Below are positions 1 to 9,481 of a stretch of DNA of 9,734 nt, piece after piece (within the stretch, counting starts at the first letter, position 1; every line of letters starts with the position of its first letter). A program made the position numbers and the translations under genes. The DNA comes from a candidate division TM6 bacterium UASB124 (GTDB lineage: Bacteria; Dependentiae; Babeliae; Babeliales; RVW-14): the NCBI GenBank assembly GCA_001468855.1, contig LDIV01000002.1, forward strand, positions 153,353-163,086. The letters are read 5' to 3'. A model generated the notes under the pieces. The model made no database searches and was not told where the DNA came from. It worked only from the letters and a program-made list of their open reading frames with translations.

Positions 1-580
1 AACGAATTGTTTGCTTTGTTGCATAGTGTGCATCACCAAGAATTCTTTTGATCTTGAATGTTTCGATAATAAGTTTGGTTATGCTAACGGCCATCTCACT
101 TTTTGTTTTGTAGAGGCCTTGAGCAAGCTCTTTGCTAAAATATGGTATTGCATTAATCGGTATATTGATCTTTCTGTTAGTTAGTAATGCGGTCACCATC
201 TTCATTCCCGGTGCTGCCATTCCAAGGCTACCGTCGAAACCAACCTCCAACCCTTCGACCTGTTTTGCATACAACTTGGTTATCTGCGTATCATCAAAGA
301 TTAAATATAGCTCTTCAAGGTTCAATGTATTTAGGGTCATTGTTGTGAGATCATCAAGTAGTGCATTTGCCTTTTCAATCGGATTATCAAAATTGCGACA
401 CATCGAATCATGTGACGTATTCATTTCTTTTGCCACATTTGTGCAAACTTTTTTATCAGTGCAAAGTAATAAAGCATCAACGTATTGCTCTGACCAAAGT
501 TTTTGATATGATTGAGCAGCATGCATGTAAAGAGCCCCTTTTTTTATGGAATAATAGATTAACTCATAAAATTGGAGCAT
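1..580 (-). CDS. DDE transposase, N-terminal part (3' end beyond window)
   Basis: This minus-strand frame is open from an ATG at 580 to the left edge (193 codons) and has no stop in the window. It reads like an IS4/IS701-type DDE transposase. An N-terminal helical part ends in a TSHDSMCRNF segment that resembles the ISHDxVTRxL stretch of such proteins. An IFDDTQITK motif follows, with the first catalytic Asp at residue 96 or 97, then a KMVTALL...INIPI strand pair, then ILGDAHYATK with the second Asp at residue 183. The third acidic residue would lie outside the window. The start is uncertain: in-frame ATGs also lie at 526 and upstream of 580. I prefer 580 because the residues after it (LQFYELIYYSIKKG) continue well into the conserved part. 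Plus-strand open frames across 132-717 are antisense shadows. The family call rests on recalled motif patterns, not a search. Confidence 0.8.
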   Translation of the reverse strand, partial: MLQFYELIYYSIKKGALYMHAAQSYQKLWSEQYVDALLLCTDKKVCTNVAKEMNTSHDSMCRNFDNPIEKANALLDDLTTMTLNTLNLEELYLIFDDTQITKLYAKQVEGLEVGFDGSLGMAAPGMKMVTALLTNRKINIPINAIPYFSKELAQGLYKTKSEMAVSITKLIIETFKIKRILGDAHYATKQTIR

Positions 581-697
581 CTTTACATAAAAAATCAAGA
601 TCTGGATATAACTTTCAGCTAGTGCGTAAGTCCTGTACATCAATAACAACGACATCTGTTGTCATGGCATCAGCTTCTGGTGAAAGGGAGATGATAG

Positions 698-1127: not shown

Positions 1128-1140
1128 GAAGGTTATTGAT
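1128..1140 (+). promoter_or_regulatory. Conserved 13-base leader / ribosome-binding site, paralog 1
   Basis: GAAGGTTATTGAT directly precedes the ATG. The same box with one to three changes sits directly before paralogs 2 and 3. AAGGT at about -8 is a partial Shine-Dalgarno match. Its conservation fixes the start codon of all three genes. Confidence 0.6.
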
Positions 1141-2307
1141 ATGAATAGGGCACTCAAGATCAAATCTTTATTCACAATGTTTTTGTTCTTTTTTTCTTTG
1201 TTCTGTATTTGTTATGACCAATGTTATGCTCGAATTATTTGCCTGGATATTTTGTATGCAAAAGATGATTCATCAAAGATTGTTTATTTATTTGGTGATA
1301 GCCATGATTGGATTACGGGAAGACATATTAAAGAGGAAGTTGAACAACTTACTCAGTTAAAAAAGGCTGTTGAGCAACAAAATAAACATGTAACGATTTT
1401 GGTGGAGGATGTTAAAGATTTTTTGCATGAATCATTGCGAAGTACAGCTCCAGATTTTTGTGATGATTATTTTTTATCCGGACTTGTTCAACGTGTGCAA
1501 CAATGGGCAAAGAGTAACATTGTTTGTGCCTATGGTATTGAACAACGATACTTGCTATTAGAAGCTTTTGCTTTTTATAATGCGTATTCTGTGCCACCAA
1601 TTATGGCGCATGCATTTTATAGTTCCTATGTACTAACATTTGATGATTTGTTTGGAGAGATAGAAATACTGTGCAAAAACATTTGCTCGTTAGCACGTTC
1701 AATTAATGTACAGGGAGCATGTGCAGAGATTGTAAAAGAAAAAATGAAATCAATTCAATATAATTGTGTGAATCTGCTTAATGTAATGTTTGACCGAAAA
1801 TTGGTTATGGATGACAATATATATCAAAAGCAGCTTGCATTATTTTGCGAAGAGATAAAAATGCGGTTGTTACAATATGGCGATAATACATTATGGATTG
1901 AAGAATTAGAGAAAAAATTAACTCTTTTTGCCAAGCAGGCGGCCATAGAAGGTGGAACAGAGAATTTGCGTAAACAATGTGATGCTCTTCGTGAAGACGT
2001 GAAACGGACATTGGCGGCAAAGGTTGGAGATAAGGTTAATAATCAGAGCTTTTGGTATAATTTGCGATATGAAGAGCGTTTAGTAAATAACGCAATTCTG
2101 CCAATTTTGATTGATATTCTTGATCTAATCATTTTTCTTAATCTGATCAAATATTTGGCCGATGGGCCTGTTGTTGTTTTTGCTGGCGCAGCACATACCG
2201 AGAATGTAAGAACAATGCTTGCGACGCTTGGCTTTGTATGGGATTATAAACAAAGTATTTGCTTTTGTGCCGATGATAAATTTCCATTGAATAAAATAAT
2301 CTTTTAA
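1141..2307 (+). CDS. Exported TraB/Tiki-like (paired GX2H) protein, paralog 1
   Basis: The protein has 388 residues. A signal peptide (basic start, hydrophobic core at about 10-22) probably ends after CYA at residue 30, giving a mature protein that begins RIICLDILY. Conserved marks are GDSH (52-55), V-E-D with E89 and D90, GIEQR (132-136) and GAAH ending in H352, within VVVFAGAAHTENV. Two GX2H motifs plus a conserved Glu and Arg are the reported signature of TraB/Tiki/GumN proteins in the EreA/ChaN-like clan. The 200-odd residues between are mostly helical, charged and variable. It ends PLNKIIF. It is the first gene of a three-paralog tandem with a 22-base gap to the next. Function is inferred as a metal-dependent exported protein, possibly a protease. 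Motif spacing argues against calcineurin-type phosphatase despite the GDxH motif. Confidence is high for the gene and moderate for the family. Confidence 0.85.
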   Translation: MNRALKIKSLFTMFLFFFSLFCICYDQCYARIICLDILYAKDDSSKIVYLFGDSHDWITGRHIKEEVEQLTQLKKAVEQQNKHVTILVEDVKDFLHESLRSTAPDFCDDYFLSGLVQRVQQWAKSNIVCAYGIEQRYLLLEAFAFYNAYSVPPIMAHAFYSSYVLTFDDLFGEIEILCKNICSLARSINVQGACAEIVKEKMKSIQYNCVNLLNVMFDRKLVMDDNIYQKQLALFCEEIKMRLLQYGDNTLWIEELEKKLTLFAKQAAIEGGTENLRKQCDALREDVKRTLAAKVGDKVNNQSFWYNLRYEERLVNNAILPILIDILDLIIFLNLIKYLADGPVVVFAGAAHTENVRTMLATLGFVWDYKQSICFCADDKFPLNKIIF

Positions 2308-2316
2308 TCAATCATA

Positions 2317-2329
2317 AAAGGTTATTTGT
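2317..2329 (+). promoter_or_regulatory. Conserved 13-base leader / ribosome-binding site, paralog 2
   Basis: AAAGGTTATTTGT abuts the ATG and is the second copy of the leader box. It lies in the 22-base gap after the paralog 1 stop, so each tandem copy carries its own translation start signal. Confidence 0.6.
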
Positions 2330-3529
2330 ATGAAACGAGCACTGAATACCAAGTCTTTATCCCAAGTATTTCTATCTTTATGTCGTAGATCTGTTGTTGT
2401 AAGCGTCTTTATTGTCATAAGCACCTGTCTTGTCTTTATAAAAGTCGATGCGCGTATTGTATCGGTTGATGTTTTGTATCGTGGAAATAATGTTGTGTAT
2501 TTATTTGGTGACTATCATGGATTTGGCTTTGGTGGTGAGAGTAAAGAGGAAAAAAAGCAATTGGTACTCATAAAGTCATTGATTGAGCAACAAAAACAAA
2601 AAATGACTATCCTAGTTGAAGATCAGTTGGATCTAAGGAAACAAAAGCTAGAGAAAGAAGATTCTGATTATATTCCGGATTTTCTTTTAGCGGGCTTAGT
2701 TCAACGTGTACAAAAATGGAAAAACGATAAGGTCGATGTTTATGGTATAGATTGTAGGTGGGTTTTGGGTGATGCGTTTTCTTTTTTTAATCCATTTGCT
2801 ATTCATCCTATACAGATAAAGGCCGCTGATAATATTAATCCATACAAACTAACGGTCTCAGAAGTTTTTGACGAAATTGAAACAATTAATAAGAAATCTT
2901 TAAATTTATTGTGTTGTTTAGGTTTGGCAAATAACTTCGATGTTGTCATGAAGCAAGAAATGAAAACAATTCAAGATGCTCAAGCATTATTGCTTGATTG
3001 TTTAACTAAAATGAAAATCAATCTAAAAAATACTCTATATTGCAGTTCTATTGAGTTATTCTGCAAAGAGATGCGGGATAATGTAATGGAAAGTGATAGT
3101 GATCAACAACTGCTGAAGAAGCTAGAATCAGCACTTGAAGACCTTAGTAATCAATATTTGAAAAAGTATCCAAACGCTGAGGCTGATATTATTGCTAAAA
3201 AAATTCATGAAGAGTTTTGGAGCTACATTAAACAGGTAACCGATTCGTTTCAGAAGATTGAGTTTTCTGATTTTATTCAACATGCAAGACCATTATGTAA
3301 GTTGGTGCATGATGCGTTGCATAAAGTTATTGTTCATATTTTTGATCCAATAGTGTATCTGAACGTTCTAAAATATTTATCTCAAGGATCTGTGGTTGTT
3401 TTTGCTGGAGCTGATCATACCAAAAATGTAAGAGACATGCTTTTAAAAAGTGGATTTACTCTATGTAAGGACAAAACTGCTTCTTGTAAATATTGGGAAA
3501 AACTACCATTGAATAAAATAAGTTTTTGA
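2330..3529 (+). CDS. Exported TraB/Tiki-like (paired GX2H) protein, paralog 2
   Basis: The protein has 399 residues. The long signal region has an N-terminal MKRALNTKSL block, a second basic spot (RR at 19-20), a hydrophobic core at about 21-36, and likely cleavage after VDA at residue 41 before RIVSVDVLY. A cysteine inside the core (ISTC) does not make a normal lipobox because Thr precedes it. The family marks are all present: GDYH with H63, ILVED, GIDCR (Asp where the other copies have Glu) and GADH with H363. The block before the second motif (FDPIVYLNVLKYL) is very close to paralog 3. It ends PLNKISF. It sits mid-operon with gaps of 22 and 24 bases. The Glu-to-Asp change in GIDCR could alter activity if that position is functional. 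Confidence 0.85.
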   Translation: MKRALNTKSLSQVFLSLCRRSVVVSVFIVISTCLVFIKVDARIVSVDVLYRGNNVVYLFGDYHGFGFGGESKEEKKQLVLIKSLIEQQKQKMTILVEDQLDLRKQKLEKEDSDYIPDFLLAGLVQRVQKWKNDKVDVYGIDCRWVLGDAFSFFNPFAIHPIQIKAADNINPYKLTVSEVFDEIETINKKSLNLLCCLGLANNFDVVMKQEMKTIQDAQALLLDCLTKMKINLKNTLYCSSIELFCKEMRDNVMESDSDQQLLKKLESALEDLSNQYLKKYPNAEADIIAKKIHEEFWSYIKQVTDSFQKIEFSDFIQHARPLCKLVHDALHKVIVHIFDPIVYLNVLKYLSQGSVVVFAGADHTKNVRDMLLKSGFTLCKDKTASCKYWEKLPLNKISF

Positions 3530-3540
3530 TCTAATACACC

Positions 3541-3553
3541 GAAGGTTATTGGT
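3541..3553 (+). promoter_or_regulatory. Conserved 13-base leader / ribosome-binding site, paralog 3
   Basis: GAAGGTTATTGGT abuts the ATG. It differs from the paralog 1 box at one base, and the similarity runs on into the codons for MNRAL. Confidence 0.6.
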
Positions 3554-4741
3554 ATGAATAGGGCACTGAGTACTAAATCTCTGTTACGAAGCTTTTTATC
3601 TGTAGCTTGCAGGTCTGCAATAAGCATTATTCTCATCATTCTCATCTCAACTTGTCTTATTTTTTCTCAAACTCAAGCCCGTATTGTCGTTCTTGATGTC
3701 TTATATGCAAAAAAAGATCCATCAAAAATAGTTTATTTATTTGGTGATGAGCATTTTCTGTTATCAGAGGTTGTGAACAGTCAGCTTGAGCAGCTACAAA
3801 AAGTCGTTAAACAACAAAACAGAAATAGTATGATTTTGGTTGAGGATCCTCTAGCATTTCGTGATGAAAAATTATCGAGTGATGATGATGGATTTCTTCC
3901 TGGACTTGTACAACGTATAAATCAATGGGGAAATAGTGCATATGTGCATAGTCAGGGAATTGAAAACAGAGGCGTTCTTACTGAAGCATTGACAGTTTTT
4001 AATCCGTTTTCTGTGCCGCCAGTCATTGTGTCTTCACATAAACCTCAACCATATAATCCATATACGAAGACATTTGATGATTTGTTTAATGAAGTTGAGA
4101 TTTTATATAAAGATATTCAGTTGTTGAGTAAATCAATTAATGCTGATGATAATTGTAATAAAATTATATTTAAGAAGATTGAGCTTCTTCAATCTTCCTG
4201 CATTAAATTGCTTGATGCTTTAGCAAAGACCCAAGGTACGATTGATGACGTTATCTATTTGCATGCGCTTAAACTTTATAATAAACAGATCCATGCTTGC
4301 ATAATAAAAAACGGTAGTGATTTAACATGGGGCGCTTTAAGCGATGAAATTGCCCATTTTTATGAACGAATGATTAATAAGGGTTCCAATGGCGTCACCA
4401 AAAAAGAAGCTGAGGATCTTAATCAGAGAATAATGAATTATCTCAATGAAAGAAAAGGTGGGGACTATATAGTGTGTTATATGAATTGGCTTGGTTATTT
4501 GTATCGTATTATGTATGATGCTCTACATGATGTGTTAGTCCATATTCTGGATCCATTTATTTTCCTGAATATTCTTAAATATATACCGCAAGGTTCTGTA
4601 GTTGTTTTTGCAGGTGCAGATCATACAAAAAATGTAAAAGAAATGTTAATTGAGTTTGACTTTGTTCATAATACTGAAAGAAGCGTGCCGTATGAGGGTA
4701 CTGACATCAAGCCATTTCCATTGAACAAAATAGCATTTTAG
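3554..4741 (+). CDS. Exported TraB/Tiki-like (paired GX2H) protein, paralog 3
   Basis: The protein has 395 residues. A MNRALSTKSL start and a hydrophobic core at about 21-37 lead to likely cleavage after TQA at residue 42, before RIVVLDVLYAKKDPSKIVY, which is almost the same as the corresponding part of paralog 1. Marks are GDEH with H67, ILVED, GIENR and GADH with H357 within VVVFAGADHTKNV. The segment HDVLVHILDPFIFLNILKY precedes the last motif. It ends PLNKIAF. It is the last gene of the tandem. It shares its N-terminal part with paralog 1 (AKKDPSK / AKDDSSK, absent from paralog 2) but its C-terminal part with paralog 2 (GADHTKNV), a pattern that could reflect gene conversion. Role as for paralog 1, inferred. 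Confidence 0.85.
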   Translation: MNRALSTKSLLRSFLSVACRSAISIILIILISTCLIFSQTQARIVVLDVLYAKKDPSKIVYLFGDEHFLLSEVVNSQLEQLQKVVKQQNRNSMILVEDPLAFRDEKLSSDDDGFLPGLVQRINQWGNSAYVHSQGIENRGVLTEALTVFNPFSVPPVIVSSHKPQPYNPYTKTFDDLFNEVEILYKDIQLLSKSINADDNCNKIIFKKIELLQSSCIKLLDALAKTQGTIDDVIYLHALKLYNKQIHACIIKNGSDLTWGALSDEIAHFYERMINKGSNGVTKKEAEDLNQRIMNYLNERKGGDYIVCYMNWLGYLYRIMYDALHDVLVHILDPFIFLNILKYIPQGSVVVFAGADHTKNVKEMLIEFDFVHNTERSVPYEGTDIKPFPLNKIAF

Positions 4742-4948
4742 TTTGCTTGCTAATGCTCTAATAAGATCTGCAAAGTATCGATTCTGTAATAGTTGCTTCT
4801 TGCTTTATCAGATGTTTTTATAAAACACTTGCCTGGATATTAATTCCTTTTGTAATATGCATCTGGTGTTGAAAATATGGGCAACGTATAGATAATATGT
4901 GTAAAATTATTTATGTAAGCCCTATGCTTAATGAGCAAAGGAGATTTA
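4742..4948. other. Intergenic gap between tandem and acidic-protein gene
   Basis: No gene is visible here. There is no strong terminator after paralog 3. A 6-bp AT-only palindrome (TGTTTT, TAT, AAAACA) near 4814-4828 lacks a T-run. The right end holds the shared upstream box of the next gene. Confidence 0.5.
4923..4948 (+). promoter_or_regulatory. Shared upstream box with TATGCT and AAAGGAG ribosome-binding site
   Basis: TATGCT (4923-4928), AATGAGCAAAGG and then GAGATTTA precede the ATG at 4949. Nearly the same string lies before the phosphatase gene (6872-6895). TATGCT could be a -10 element, though no good -35 is visible. The AAAGGAG sequence gives a well-placed ribosome-binding site for 4949. 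Confidence 0.45.
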
Positions 4949-5257
4949 ATGAAAAGGTTTTTTGCCTTTTTATCCACCCCAATTTTTTTATCGTTGTTGT
5001 TGAGTTTGTTTCTTTTGGGACATTGTTGTTTAGCGGATGATACAGTTTCGCCGGACACTCCTGTAGTAGAGCAGCAACCTTCTGTAATCGACGAGTCGGA
5101 AGATAATTGGGAAGTTGATTTGGGAGATGGGGCGGGAACCATTGGAGATACAACACTTAAAGAAGAAGCGAATTCTGCGGACGGTGATGATGTTGTTGGT
5201 GATGTAGATGGTGCGTTACCTTTGGATGATTCAGAAGACGGTGCTGAAAATAAGTAG
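4949..5257 (+). CDS. Small, very acidic exported protein
   Basis: The protein has 102 residues from ATG 4949. An in-frame ATG at 4931 would add MSKGDL, but 4949 follows AAAGGAG at good spacing and starts a clean signal peptide (MKRFFAFL..., core about 11-24, likely cleavage after CLA at residue 29). In addition, the matching upstream sequence of the phosphatase gene is out of frame with its gene, so the extra residues are not conserved as protein. The mature 73 residues contain 24 Asp or Glu and only 2 Lys, no Arg, with repeated G-D and D-G steps, so it is probably disordered. No EF-hand loop is evident. Possible roles are cation binding or partnering with a basic surface, but none is shown. 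It is followed by a strong terminator. Confidence 0.75.
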   Translation: MKRFFAFLSTPIFLSLLLSLFLLGHCCLADDTVSPDTPVVEQQPSVIDESEDNWEVDLGDGAGTIGDTTLKEEANSADGDDVVGDVDGALPLDDSEDGAENK

Positions 5258-5277
5258 ATTAGTTTAAGGATAGTTGC

Positions 5278-5314
5278 AAGGTGAGCTTACTATGAAGCTC
5301 ACCTTATTTTTTTT
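5278..5314 (+). terminator. Intrinsic terminator after the acidic-protein gene
   Basis: An 11-bp perfect stem (AAGGTGAGCTT / AAGCTCACCTT) with a 6-base loop (ACTATG) is followed by A and eight T residues. It ends just before the stop codon of the convergent fourth paralog. On the other strand no T-run follows, so it mainly serves the plus strand. Confidence 0.9.
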
Positions 5315-5319
5315 ACTCG

Positions 5320-6750
5320 TTACGTGTTACGGCAGGATTGATACACTTTTGCAATAGTTAGTCCGCCTGCGGTGGCGGCTGAAAGAGCACCGATGATAGT
5401 TCCTGCAATAGAATTTTTTGCATTGCTACGTGCTAATAAATATGTACCTAATGCTCCTAGTGTGACAATGACGGGTATGCTTGTGAGCTTATGTATCAAT
5501 CGCTTCAGCCGTTCATAACGGGGATTAAACCTACGTACATGAAGACTCAATGGTGGGGTGTTGTCATTAAGGTTGCTTGATGATGAGGTCTCTGTTCTTG
5601 GGAAGGTGAGTTCTTCAGAATATAAAACAGTAGGAAAATCATAATATGGTCGTGATATCTTGTTATTGTATTCAAGACCGGCTTTAATAAGCATGTCTTT
5701 TAGATTTTGCGTGTGTAATGCTCCGGCAAATACTGCAACTGTTTTTTGAGTGTTTTTTAAGATATTGATGAAAGTAAATGTGTCGACAATTAATATACCG
5801 ATATCCATTAATGCTGTGTACATTGGTGTTCGGCTTTCGATGGTAGATTTCGTTCTGGGACACCTATTGATTGCATCACGTAATCTTTCTATGTATTGTG
5901 TATAAGCAATCCAAGTTTGTTTATCTTGTTGGTGAGGATATATGCTTGCAAATGTTTTAAGTGCATTTTTGAACCTAGGGAAGAGTTGCGTAAATTGGGG
6001 TGATTGATCAAAGGTTTTTTCTATGTCGCTCAAATGTATCTCAAGTGCTTTCTCTAATATGATATCACTTTGTTTTATGTTGTTTATTTCAAGGTAGTCC
6101 GTGATTTGTTTATAGCATGAATCGATTTGCTGAATATTGTTGTTGATGATGCCTTTAACCGTTGTGTTAAATGAATCTGTGTTGCAGAGTGTTTGCAATT
6201 CATTTCTGCAAACTTGAATTTCTTTACAGAGGTCGGCAAACGTTATTTTGTAGTTATTAGGATACTTGCCTGAGACTATTTTTTCGGGCGCATGGTCGCC
6301 ATTAAATGGTAGTTCGCGCATAGTGTTAAAAAAACTAATAGCTCTGGCGATATGAAATCGTTTTTCTATAGAAGTTGCTTGAATATTTGGTTTATTGAGG
6401 TTGTTAATACGTTGTGTGAGTCCTCTTATTGTTCCGAATCGAAAAGAATTAAGAGCTTTCTCTTTAAGAGTTTTGCCTTGGATTGCAAAAAGGTCTTCTG
6501 TAAGGATGCAGATAGGCTCCGTTTTATTTTTAAGATTATCTAGAATATTGGTGATTTGTGTACGTTCTATATTTTCGTATCCTGTGACGTGGTCATTGCC
6601 ATACGGTGTTGAATGAATATCGCCAAAAAGGTAAATGTTTGAACCGAAAATATCTACGCATACAAATCGAGCATGGGCTGTATTTATAAAAAGTTGAGCA
6701 AAGAGCGTAAGCAAGGACATTGTTTTGTTAAAATTTGTGCATGGGAACAT
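5320..6750 (-). CDS. Exported TraB/Tiki-like protein with C-terminal membrane tail, paralog 4
   Basis: The protein has 476 residues. ATG at 6750 follows GGAG at good spacing. The signal peptide ends in a good AHA site at residue 27, before RFVCVDIFG. Family marks are GDIH (H46), ILTED (E85, D86), SIEKR, TFADLCKEI and GALH (H346) within VFAGALHTQN. It lacks both the MNRALxxKSL start and the PLNKIxF end of the tandem copies. Instead about 80 extra residues follow: a Ser/Asn-rich linker, a basic stretch (RRFNPRYERLKRLIHK) and two hydrophobic segments at about 425-440 and 447-467, the second rich in Gly and Ala. This suggests a membrane-anchored version with the catalytic-like domain on the far side. 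It has low identity to the tandem, so it is an older relative. It lies divergent to the phosphatase gene and convergent with the acidic-protein gene. Confidence 0.85.
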   Translation of the reverse strand: MFPCTNFNKTMSLLTLFAQLFINTAHARFVCVDIFGSNIYLFGDIHSTPYGNDHVTGYENIERTQITNILDNLKNKTEPICILTEDLFAIQGKTLKEKALNSFRFGTIRGLTQRINNLNKPNIQATSIEKRFHIARAISFFNTMRELPFNGDHAPEKIVSGKYPNNYKITFADLCKEIQVCRNELQTLCNTDSFNTTVKGIINNNIQQIDSCYKQITDYLEINNIKQSDIILEKALEIHLSDIEKTFDQSPQFTQLFPRFKNALKTFASIYPHQQDKQTWIAYTQYIERLRDAINRCPRTKSTIESRTPMYTALMDIGILIVDTFTFINILKNTQKTVAVFAGALHTQNLKDMLIKAGLEYNNKISRPYYDFPTVLYSEELTFPRTETSSSSNLNDNTPPLSLHVRRFNPRYERLKRLIHKLTSIPVIVTLGALGTYLLARSNAKNSIAGTIIGALSAATAGGLTIAKVYQSCRNT

Positions 6751-6871
6751 AAAAACTCCATTTTTTGCTAAACCATTGCTTCATCTTGGTTTCTATTTGT
6801 AATATATATAAGAGGATGCAGGGTTTTGCATTGTTAGACATATGGTATTAAGTATTTATATTAGCCAGTTT

Positions 6872-6895
6872 TATGCTAATGAGCAAAGGGGTATT
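6872..6895 (+). promoter_or_regulatory. Shared upstream box with TATGCT and AAAGGGG ribosome-binding site
   Basis: TATGCT, AATGAGCAAAGG and GGTATT lead into ATG 6896, matching the box before 4949 with small indels. A six-codon frame MSKGVL starts at 6879 and its TGA (6897-6899) overlaps the gene's ATG. In the other copy the equivalent codons are in frame with the gene. Confidence 0.45.
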
Positions 6896-9481
6896 ATGAA
6901 GATATTTCGCAGTTTCTCGATGTTTTTGTTGTTGAGTATAACTGTTTTTGGCTACGGTTGTGTCAAAGCAGCTGTTCCGAATGTTCCGCAAAGTCCTTTG
7001 TTTATACTATGTTTTGATGATGATCAGTTAAACCAACAAATGAAAATTGTGGTTACTGAATGGTGGAATGAAGGTTTGGGAGAAGCATTGGGATTTGTTA
7101 AGGATATGCGTGCGTTACCGGCAAATGCAGCATTTAGGGTACTGAACGATAAAAATAATTTTGAGATGATAAAACCAGCGTGGGGGTATGCTCTTTTTGG
7201 TGGTTGGGCTTGGAAAAACCTTGAGGCACTTAAAGAAATCATTAAAAAGGGTAAGGGTCAGCAGCGACCGGTTGTTATAATTGCTGGTGGTAAAAATTCT
7301 TCTCAATTTGTTCGTGATGCAATAGTGGATTTTACTGAAAAGGTGATACATTCAATATTGCTTTTCGATCCAGAATCTTACATATATAATTTTGCATCAG
7401 TTGAAAATCGTATTTACAATTTTTGTACAAATGATTCTCGAACAATAAGCCCTATAACTACAAGTAATAATGGATTTGTTGTATCTGGAGATCAACGACT
7501 CCGTTCCAAGGTTATAAATATTTTATTTAAATCAATTTTGGCGTCTATAAATTTTTTTGAAAATAATATTTTTTGGTTGCGCGAAATACCTATTGTTGAT
7601 CTTATACGACAGAGTAATCACTATAATTTTAACGCAGATTTGAAAGCTGATATTAATTATAATGATCAAGGTTTTGTTGTTGTTTACTTGACTATAAATA
7701 ATAAATGGCAACAAGGTTTTGATCGTTCTAATAAAGTGTATTTTTTTAAGACCCCTCGATGGACATATTATGTTAATACTCAAAGCGTAGGTGTTTTGTG
7801 TGATGTGAATAACCTAGAAAGTAGGATTAAAAATACGCCTATTTCTAGAAAATCGAAATCTGGAGAGGGGACTACTCAAGCAATAGAAGATTGGGATGCG
7901 TTAGTGGAGGAGCATTTTCCTATTTTGCAGATTAGTAGTGATGTATCTACGCCTGTGTCTGTATCATCGTCAGTGAGTACGACTCCTTTGCCTATAACAT
8001 CTTCTGTCTCAACGGTAACTGTGGAACAGCCGGTTAAGCCAGCTGTAGCAGTAACACCAGCTACTCTAACACCATCAATGAGCGTGAGTTCTTCTAGTTT
8101 ACCCCAAACTTTGCCGCCTATAACAACTTCCGTGACAACGGCAACTGTAATGCAAACGATTGGATCTACTGTTGCTCCTGTTAGTTCAGCTAAAAGTGGA
8201 ATGCCATCGCTGAGCACTTTTATGAGCGCAATCCCAATTGAATTGGAAAAGCAGGGGGAGATGGACAGTGAGTTATTAAAAAAAGTTATTGATGAGTCAA
8301 AAGGTATTGTTTCATTTGATATGTTGCAATCTTTAATTCAAGAATATAATAAACGGGTTAAGATTGAGTTAGTGAAAGATGAATTTTATATACAAAAACG
8401 AACGCTCGATAACGCTGTTAGTAAGATTTGTTTTATAGGGGATATTCATGGCAGCGTTACATCAATTACTAAAATTCTTAATGATCTTAAAGGCGCAGAT
8501 AAGCAAGAAGCAGAAAGATACATAGACGATGATTTTAAAATTATTAAGAATGACTTTTATATAGTGTTTACCGGCGATTATACAGATCGTGGGCTATACG
8601 GAGTAGAGGTGTTGTATCTTCTACTAAGGCTTAAACTAGCCCCTGGGAATTGGGATAAGGTCTTTTTATTGCGTGGGAACCATGAGGATATAACAATTAA
8701 TAATACTGCGGGTAGTGCGCAACTCAACAGTCCATTCGGATTTGAAAATGAGCTTCGTATTAGATTTTTTAAGACTAACGAAAATAAGTTGAAGCTTTTT
8801 TTGAATCAATTGCTTAATCAATTTTATAACCTATTGCCACAGGCTCTTTTAATTGGTTGGGGAGAAAATTGGGTGCTTGCTTGTCATGGTTGCGTAATGC
8901 AAGATACGCTTGATCAGATAAATGGATTTAAAAAATTTAATGAAAAACTAGTATCTATGAAATTAAGGGTACAATCCCCATATGTACAAGATGTTTATTT
9001 CAATGGACAACCATGCGTTGTATATAGAACGAGTTTTCTTTGGACTGACGTTCTTTGGCGTAAAAAACAAATTATTTTTGATTTGAAGCGAGCGGGTCTT
9101 GATACGTCTAATAGTATTATTGATCCCAAGGCTTGGCTGGCTGGGGCAGGTATAAAAGCTGTCTTCAGAGGGCATCAGCATGCCGGTGCCGGATTGAAAA
9201 TGATTTCTAAAGAAAAGTATGATCATGAAAATTTTGGTCCAGTTTCATGGGAGGAATTTTTTATCGATAGGTTGGTGCCTAAGTCTATTGCTGACGTTGA
9301 GTGTCCTATCTTTACTTTTACGACAGCGCGAGTGAAGTTTCCTGATGGGGTTTTGCGATTATCCAGAGATGTTTTCTATGGCATGGTTACCACGAATGAT
9401 GATTTTGCAAAATGGATCTTGACGCCGCATCCTATTGAGGAACAAACAGCAACATCGTCAACCCAGTCTTCGACAGATTAA
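6896..9481 (+). CDS. Exported PPP-family (Ser/Thr phosphatase-like) protein with large N-terminal domain
   Basis: The protein has 861 residues from ATG 6896, chosen over in-frame ATG 6842 because AAAGGGG precedes it and a normal signal peptide then follows (MKIFRSF..., likely cleavage near VKAA, residues about 22-25). Residues about 30-340 form an unrecognised domain containing RPVVIIAGGKNSS and IHSILLFDPES. Residues about 350-460 are a Ser/Thr/Pro/Val linker with an internal repeat. The C-terminal domain carries the whole PPP set: GDIHG (515-519), GDYTDRG (560-566), LRGNHE (592-597), CHGC with H664, and RGHQH with H760. These match the metal ligands and catalytic His of PP1/PP2A-type enzymes. 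The string VEVLYLLLRLK after GDYTDRG resembles eukaryotic PPPs more than short bacterial ones. It is predicted to remove phosphate from Ser/Thr in exported form, perhaps on host proteins; the target is unknown. Confidence 0.88.
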   Translation: MKIFRSFSMFLLLSITVFGYGCVKAAVPNVPQSPLFILCFDDDQLNQQMKIVVTEWWNEGLGEALGFVKDMRALPANAAFRVLNDKNNFEMIKPAWGYALFGGWAWKNLEALKEIIKKGKGQQRPVVIIAGGKNSSQFVRDAIVDFTEKVIHSILLFDPESYIYNFASVENRIYNFCTNDSRTISPITTSNNGFVVSGDQRLRSKVINILFKSILASINFFENNIFWLREIPIVDLIRQSNHYNFNADLKADINYNDQGFVVVYLTINNKWQQGFDRSNKVYFFKTPRWTYYVNTQSVGVLCDVNNLESRIKNTPISRKSKSGEGTTQAIEDWDALVEEHFPILQISSDVSTPVSVSSSVSTTPLPITSSVSTVTVEQPVKPAVAVTPATLTPSMSVSSSSLPQTLPPITTSVTTATVMQTIGSTVAPVSSAKSGMPSLSTFMSAIPIELEKQGEMDSELLKKVIDESKGIVSFDMLQSLIQEYNKRVKIELVKDEFYIQKRTLDNAVSKICFIGDIHGSVTSITKILNDLKGADKQEAERYIDDDFKIIKNDFYIVFTGDYTDRGLYGVEVLYLLLRLKLAPGNWDKVFLLRGNHEDITINNTAGSAQLNSPFGFENELRIRFFKTNENKLKLFLNQLLNQFYNLLPQALLIGWGENWVLACHGCVMQDTLDQINGFKKFNEKLVSMKLRVQSPYVQDVYFNGQPCVVYRTSFLWTDVLWRKKQIIFDLKRAGLDTSNSIIDPKAWLAGAGIKAVFRGHQHAGAGLKMISKEKYDHENFGPVSWEEFFIDRLVPKSIADVECPIFTFTTARVKFPDGVLRLSRDVFYGMVTTNDDFAKWILTPHPIEEQTATSSTQSSTD
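7991..8022 (+). repeat. Linker repeat, copy 1
   Basis: CCTATAACATCTTCTGTCTC and the following 12 bases match 8117-8148 at 27 of 32 positions. They encode PITSSVSTVTV in the phosphatase linker. Copies start 126 bases (42 codons) apart, in frame. Confidence 0.7.
8117..8148 (+). repeat. Linker repeat, copy 2
   Basis: This is the second copy, encoding PITTSVTTATV. The changes mostly keep Ser, Thr or Val, which fits a low-complexity linker grown by internal duplication. Confidence 0.7.

Follow-up and report, generated by a model that had tools for sequence, protein, structure and literature searches.

Four exported paralogs of a candidate division TM6 bacterium, probably a distant branch of the TIKI fold group

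We analysed a stretch of 9,734 nucleotides from the candidate division TM6 bacterium UASB124 (contig LDIV01000002.1, positions 153,353 to 163,086); this whole stretch is referred to as the window, and all coordinates refer to it. The window encodes four related proteins of the exported type, here called copies A to D, which lie together with the following features:

1141..2307, plus strand: copy A (P0002), candidate exported TIKI-like protein of 388 amino acids; open reading frame with GDSH at 1294-1305, VED at 1402-1410, GIEQR at 1534-1548 and GAAH at 2185-2196
2330..3529, plus strand: copy B, 399 amino acids; open reading frame with GDYH at 2507-2518, VED at 2615-2623, GIDCR at 2744-2758 and GADH at 3407-3418
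3554..4741, plus strand: copy C (P0001), 395 amino acids; open reading frame with GDEH at 3743-3754, VED at 3839-3847, GIENR at 3956-3970 and GADH at 4613-4624
5320..6750, minus strand: copy D (P0004), 476 amino acids; open reading frame with GDIH at 6613-6624, TED at 6493-6501, SIEKR at 6358-6372 and GALH at 5713-5724
1128..1184, plus strand: leader and 5' end of copy A, 57 bases (repeat family D2), recurring before copy B at 2317-2373 (72%) and before copy C at 3541-3597 (77%)
4073..4591, plus strand: helical insert that separates core strands of copy C (residues about 174-346), delimited by the helices of the model; the least conserved part
5353..5487, minus strand: C-terminal tail of copy D, in which residues 422-440 and 448-466 form two hydrophobic segments, from computed hydrophobicity and the alignment
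5278-5305, plus strand: terminator-like hairpin with a T run, from a shuffle folding test

Copies A, B and C are arranged in tandem on the plus strand with intergenic gaps of 22 and 24 bases, and copy D lies on the minus strand. The plus strand genes and copy D converge upon the hairpin and its T run, for which the folding test gave a z of -3.35, none of 200 shuffles folding equally well. As judged by eye, the repeated leader contains the ribosome-binding region of copies A, B and C. Because the three genes share this region as well as the start of the coding sequence, we conclude that they originated by tandem duplication.

Pairwise identity among copies A to D is 23-41% over 354-382 aligned columns and, therefore, the four proteins are homologs and no chance look-alikes. 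Outside the window, searches of 5.8 billion proteins, in which a match requires shared five-residue words and in some of which only the best 7996 or 7998 candidates by shared words were scored, returned only two homologs, P0003 (504 amino acids) and P0005 (492 amino acids), in neither of which a Pfam domain was found. These searches are not exhaustive, because they depend on shared five-residue words and because the window's own copy B was never returned. Copy D is 52% identical to P0005, while copy B is 40% identical to P0003, its closest outside homolog. In a tree with a midpoint root only, copy D grouped with P0005 (100/100) and copy A with copy C (100/99); the placement of copy B and P0003 was not fixed.

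A scan of genome contigs with the family confirmed no relative, nor did scans of viral contigs, and tblastn of copy C against phages and against plasmids gave no match at E<=1. Copies A to D reached no family cut-off in Pfam or NCBIfam and gave nothing in PADLOC; in PHROGs, copy D had no row and the other three copies only rows of E 0.008 or worse. Pfam rows for TetR, DUF6376, SLATT and Glyoxalase were rejected, being sub-threshold and inconsistent between copies. The most likely reading is that the family is rare and fast-evolving. In the available portions of two papers, genomes of the phylum Dependentiae/Babelota are described as encoding many exported proteins of unknown function (PMC4378268, PMC6561590), and the term 'TraB' was not found in the available portion of the former (PMC4378268). 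Among the literature titles listed, none of those on Dependentiae with TraB/GumN and none of those on giant virus, TraB, Tiki, GumN and erythromycin esterase describes the family.

As stated in the initial annotation, all four proteins carry GDxH, (V/T)ED, (G/S)I(E/D)xR and GAxH in this order. The outside homologs retain the pattern, with GDMH, VED, GIECR and GRSH in P0003, and GDIH, VED, PIEKR and GALH in P0005; because P0003 carries GRSH, the second motif is GX2H, and GAxH is not strict. Across the six sequences (A to D, P0003 and P0005), 32 columns are invariant, including Y-L-F-G-D-x-H, E-D, R121, R139, T173, E180, D333, F-A-G-x-x-H-T-x-N and M-L (copy C numbering), and His is invariant in only two columns, one in each GX2H motif. 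Mean pairwise identity of the six sequences is 39.2% in 42-160, 22.4% in 161-330 and 47.4% in 331-380. The GDxH motif lies 15-21 residues from an AxA/R-like junction read by eye; the initial annotation had given a position of about 20 residues past the signal cleavage site. Calculation showed a strong hydrophobic segment at the N terminus of five of the six proteins, copy D being under the cut-off used.

The C-terminal tail of copy D with its two segments is common to copy D, P0003 and P0005 and absent in copies A, B and C. It is rich in Gly and Ala, and 28 of the 47 positions 422-468 are invariant with P0005 and P0003; this strong conservation suggests that the tail has a function of its own, e.g. 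in anchoring or sorting. The tail is probably a membrane hairpin, in a part of the structural model where confidence is low, and may be ancestral and have been lost in the tandem copies. Compared with known families, it gave only sub-threshold SLATT and holin rows.

AlphaFold models were built for copy C (predicted local distance difference test (pLDDT) score 80.3, predicted template modelling (pTM) score 0.81) and copy D (pLDDT 73.4, pTM 0.70) from one six-sequence set with the target exchanged. Both models have an alpha/beta core and a long helical insert, with the motif residues at or just past the ends of core strands. The order of elements in both is a strand, a strand ending in GDxH, a helix, a strand followed by ED, a strand followed by IExR, the long helical insert, a strand followed by GAxH, and a helix. 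Lying at successive strand ends, the motifs would meet along a single edge of the sheet, provided that its strands are parallel. Among the 50 structural (VIA) rows listed, those spanning the core included ciliate complex IV chains with both models, ChaN (2g5g) with copy C and a PMT C-region with copy D. ChaN, a haem-binding protein, was listed for copy C with a Z within the background range and 12% identity and was not listed for copy D. The ciliate likenesses include the Tetrahymena complex IV chain DQ/E (8bqs, 8b6h, 7w5z), which we take to be, possibly, the TraB-family subunit of that complex. No erythromycin esterase structure was among the 50 VIA rows listed, and this is not counted as evidence.

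Proteins of the TraB/PrgY/GumN type (PF01963; YbaP) have two GX2H motifs, one near the N-terminal and one near the C-terminal end of the domain, and the same holds for all six members of the family described here. They also have a Glu about one strand past the first GX2H, E67 of YbaP being at +26 from the His; the conserved Glu of the family is at +30 to +40 from the first His in 6/6 sequences and just past the next strand in both models. By contrast, the first motif is GS/GTxH in TraB proteins and GDxH in the family, which, unlike TraB, has a long helical insert after the IExR strand. When the family was compared by hhalign with a TraB profile, i.e. an alignment of ten TraB/GumN proteins, the best local alignment was on the second GX2H (probability 24, E 8e-4). 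With another match-column setting, the probability was 12 and the score 30.5, compared to at most 19.3 among 200 shuffles of the columns and 15.2 when the alignment was reversed; the next local alignment paired the first GX2H motifs (score 22.2, E 0.043). Moreover, when the family profile was compared to 99 single E. coli K-12 proteins, YbaP, also used as a single sequence, came first with 28.5, followed by UshA (24.5) and SelU (23.7). The 99 proteins are the complete coding sequences from three K-12 stretches, one of which was picked for holding ybaP, with rhsD, appX, the short copA product, end-cut genes and pseudogenes left out. The profile comparison favours a relationship to TraB and is suggestive rather than proof. 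Phages contained no match to a Rhizobium TraB protein.

In the available portion of the paper on RRSP, an endopeptidase of the TIKI superfamily, Glu3900, His3902, Glu3930 and His4030 are reported to be essential in vitro, and Arg4001 to be the basic residue described as conserved throughout the TIKI proteases (PMC6254334); our comparison with RRSP and the Ere-type protein Bcr135 rests on the residue numbers given there. Both proteins combine an alpha/beta core with added helical parts, as does the family. D65-x-H67, E97 and H357 of copy C follow the RRSP order Glu-x-His, Glu, His, and the spacing from the His to the Glu is 30-40 in the family and 28 in RRSP. The Asp-x-His, Glu, His set is invariant in 6/6 sequences, the first acid being Asp where the 2His/2Glu set has Glu. 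Besides this replacement, the family differs from RRSP, as far as that source goes, in having the basic residue elsewhere and a hydrophobic export-type N terminus as opposed to a toxin context.

The initial annotation had placed the four proteins in a diverged branch of the EreA/ChaN/TraB clan and had equated their Arg with that of TraB. Judged by spacing, the second claim was not supported: the basic residue precedes the second His by 29 residues in RRSP and by 24 residues in YbaP (R228, invariant in the ten TraB proteins), whereas the family has an invariant Asp 23-24 residues before the second His in 6/6 sequences. The invariant Arg residues of the family are R121 and R139 of copy C, and the Arg of the IExR strand lies 215-259 residues before the second His; therefore, it probably differs from the TraB/RRSP Arg, with a spatial equivalence being possible. 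Three results weigh against the placement in the clan. No Pfam row for TraB (PF01963), ChaN (PF04187) or Ere (PF05139) was obtained at E<=1 for any of the four copies, nor at E<=10 for P0003 and P0005, while YbaP as a positive control for PF01963 gave 150.8 bits; hhalign in global mode aligned only 3 columns of the family with TraB; and Foldseek of both models against the PDB gave no significant match. What stands of the placement are the weak profile match that exceeds its controls, the order and similar spacing of acid-x-His, Glu and His, and the core-spanning structural rows for the ciliate complex IV chains, ChaN (copy C) and the PMT C-region (copy D). Because the family does not pass the sequence test of TraB, ChaN or Ere and also disagrees with the TraB Arg spacing, we file it as a member of none of the three. 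In total, the evidence supports, without proving it, a distant position within the TIKI/EreA/ChaN/TraB fold group, of which the family is probably a distant branch.

The only fold matches at E<=1e-3 in any library searched came from a library of predicted structures of viral proteins only, in which a closer cellular match could not appear. At this threshold, Foldseek gave 13 matches to copy C and 9 to copy D, all 9 of which are within the 13, with E 9e-7 to 4e-4, probability 1.00 and alignments of 381-508 columns. All of them (13/13 and 9/9) belong to large DNA viruses that infect protists or algae, i.e. Klosneuvirus, Hokovirus, Indivirus, Terrestrivirus, Hyperionvirus, Harvfovirus, Fadolivirus, the LCMiAC01 and LCMAC101 viruses, Feldmannia viruses and Heterosigma akashiwo virus. 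The table names no function for any of them, and the proteins of Hyperionvirus (A0A3G5AC46), Terrestrivirus (A0A3G4ZJX3) and Klosneuvirus (A0A1V0SIX0), which resemble the family fold, are uncharacterised. TM-scores are low (0.21-0.42) and root-mean-square deviations high (11-25 A), with 11-15% identity, and, therefore, the whole shapes superpose poorly. The family profile (A3) matched none of 40 IMG/VR records at E<=10, 7 of them having a first-look candidate; these records were taken from 80 listed loci with an Hsp70-like motif, to which no virus class was assigned. In the IMG/VR records, PF04187 and PF05139 gave 0/40 each and PF01963 gave 0/19, and a motif scan of 120 stretches from virus records (1,069,562 bases, 974 frames of at least 150 residues) gave 0. 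These negatives show little, because there was no viral positive control.

We favour, with reasonable though not high confidence, that copies A to D are four paralogous exported hydrolases, most likely peptidases and less likely esterases, built on a TIKI-type alpha/beta core. In this mechanism, D65-x-H67, E97 and H357 of copy C would converge at one sheet edge to form a putative active site, where the His-acid pair, whether or not a metal takes part, would activate water to attack a carbonyl. The substrate may be bound by Arg139 or Arg121 instead of the later Arg of TraB and RRSP and is probably selected by the helical insert; the divergence of the insert suggests that each copy has its own substrate. 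The tandem duplicates A, B and C would probably be released to the periplasm or the outside, and copy D, with its two-helix tail, would probably be anchored in the membrane.

Alternatively, the proteins might have the TIKI fold and be binding proteins instead of enzymes, the two His and the acids holding a metal or haem cofactor, much as ChaN does its haem, and the family scavenging this cofactor from the surroundings. The ChaN structure, the PDB title of which refers to cofacial haem binding, is a core-spanning row for copy C, and exported paralogs with diverged inserts would fit the capture of different ligands. However, the acid-x-His, Glu, His set parallels the catalytic residues reported for RRSP, and the invariance of D65, E97 and D98 would go beyond the needs of a simple His ligand site; we consider a binding function unlikely. 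That the proteins have an unrelated Rossmann-like alpha/beta fold, with two GX2H motifs acquired by convergence, appears improbable to a similar degree or slightly more so, because the profile controls favour TraB and the ciliate complex IV chains recur with both models.

The viral matches could also mean that the family belongs to a giant-virus-type lineage of the fold present in protist parasites, which bacteria and large DNA viruses exchanged while sharing a host cell and which acts on host proteins. The restriction of all matches at E<=1e-3 in the viral library to large DNA viruses of protists or algae would agree with such an exchange; the poor superposition and low identity of these matches, the lack of a sequence match in the 40 virus records and of a confirmed relative in the viral contig scans, and the inability of a viral-only library to display closer cellular relatives speak against it, and we give it a small chance. 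Rather doubtful is the wider proposal that the hydrolases favoured here form a new exported TIKI-fold branch, the fold of which occurs both in bacteria that infect protists and in giant viruses of protists and algae and is used by both on host targets, with the bacterial gene array diversifying the helical substrate domain. Should the viral likeness stem from a common ancestor, a class of giant-virus proteins that lacks annotation would acquire a hypothesis on its chemistry, along with a tie to bacteria that possibly live in the same protist hosts; if it does not, the family would be a clear case of a TIKI-like enzyme that has drifted beyond the reach of profiles, its conserved Arg having shifted or been replaced. 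Copies A to D reach no Pfam or NCBIfam cut-off and have no significant PDB match, yet their invariant residues and predicted fold yield a testable active site.

The window contains the following additional features:

2-655, minus strand: transposase of the IS701/DDE_5 type that runs off the window edge (PF13546, 43.4 bits; IS701 models under cut-off)
4949-5257, plus strand: small exported protein, 102 amino acids from ATG 4949, with a hydrophobic N terminus
6842-9481, plus strand: large exported protein that carries, at residues 528-781 of the 6842 frame, a calcineurin-like phosphoesterase domain (PF00149, 69.4 bits)
4929-4948 and 6877-6896, plus strand: similar leader TAATGAGCAAAGG..., repeat family D15, 85% over 20 bases

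The transposase gave no match by tblastn against plasmids. In the phosphoesterase protein, a long N-terminal part without a family and a linker rich in Ser, Thr, Pro and Val precede the PF00149 domain; as judged by eye, its likely start is ATG 6896, behind AGCAAAGGGG. By tblastn, the protein had no match in phages and the domain none in plasmids, and a scan of genome contigs with the domain found no relative. The small protein (4931 frame) had no family match; beyond the N terminus it is very acidic, with 24 Asp and Glu and 4 Lys and Arg residues overall. The leader of repeat family D15 precedes both the small exported protein and the phosphoesterase protein, and is perhaps a common promoter or leader type of this genome.
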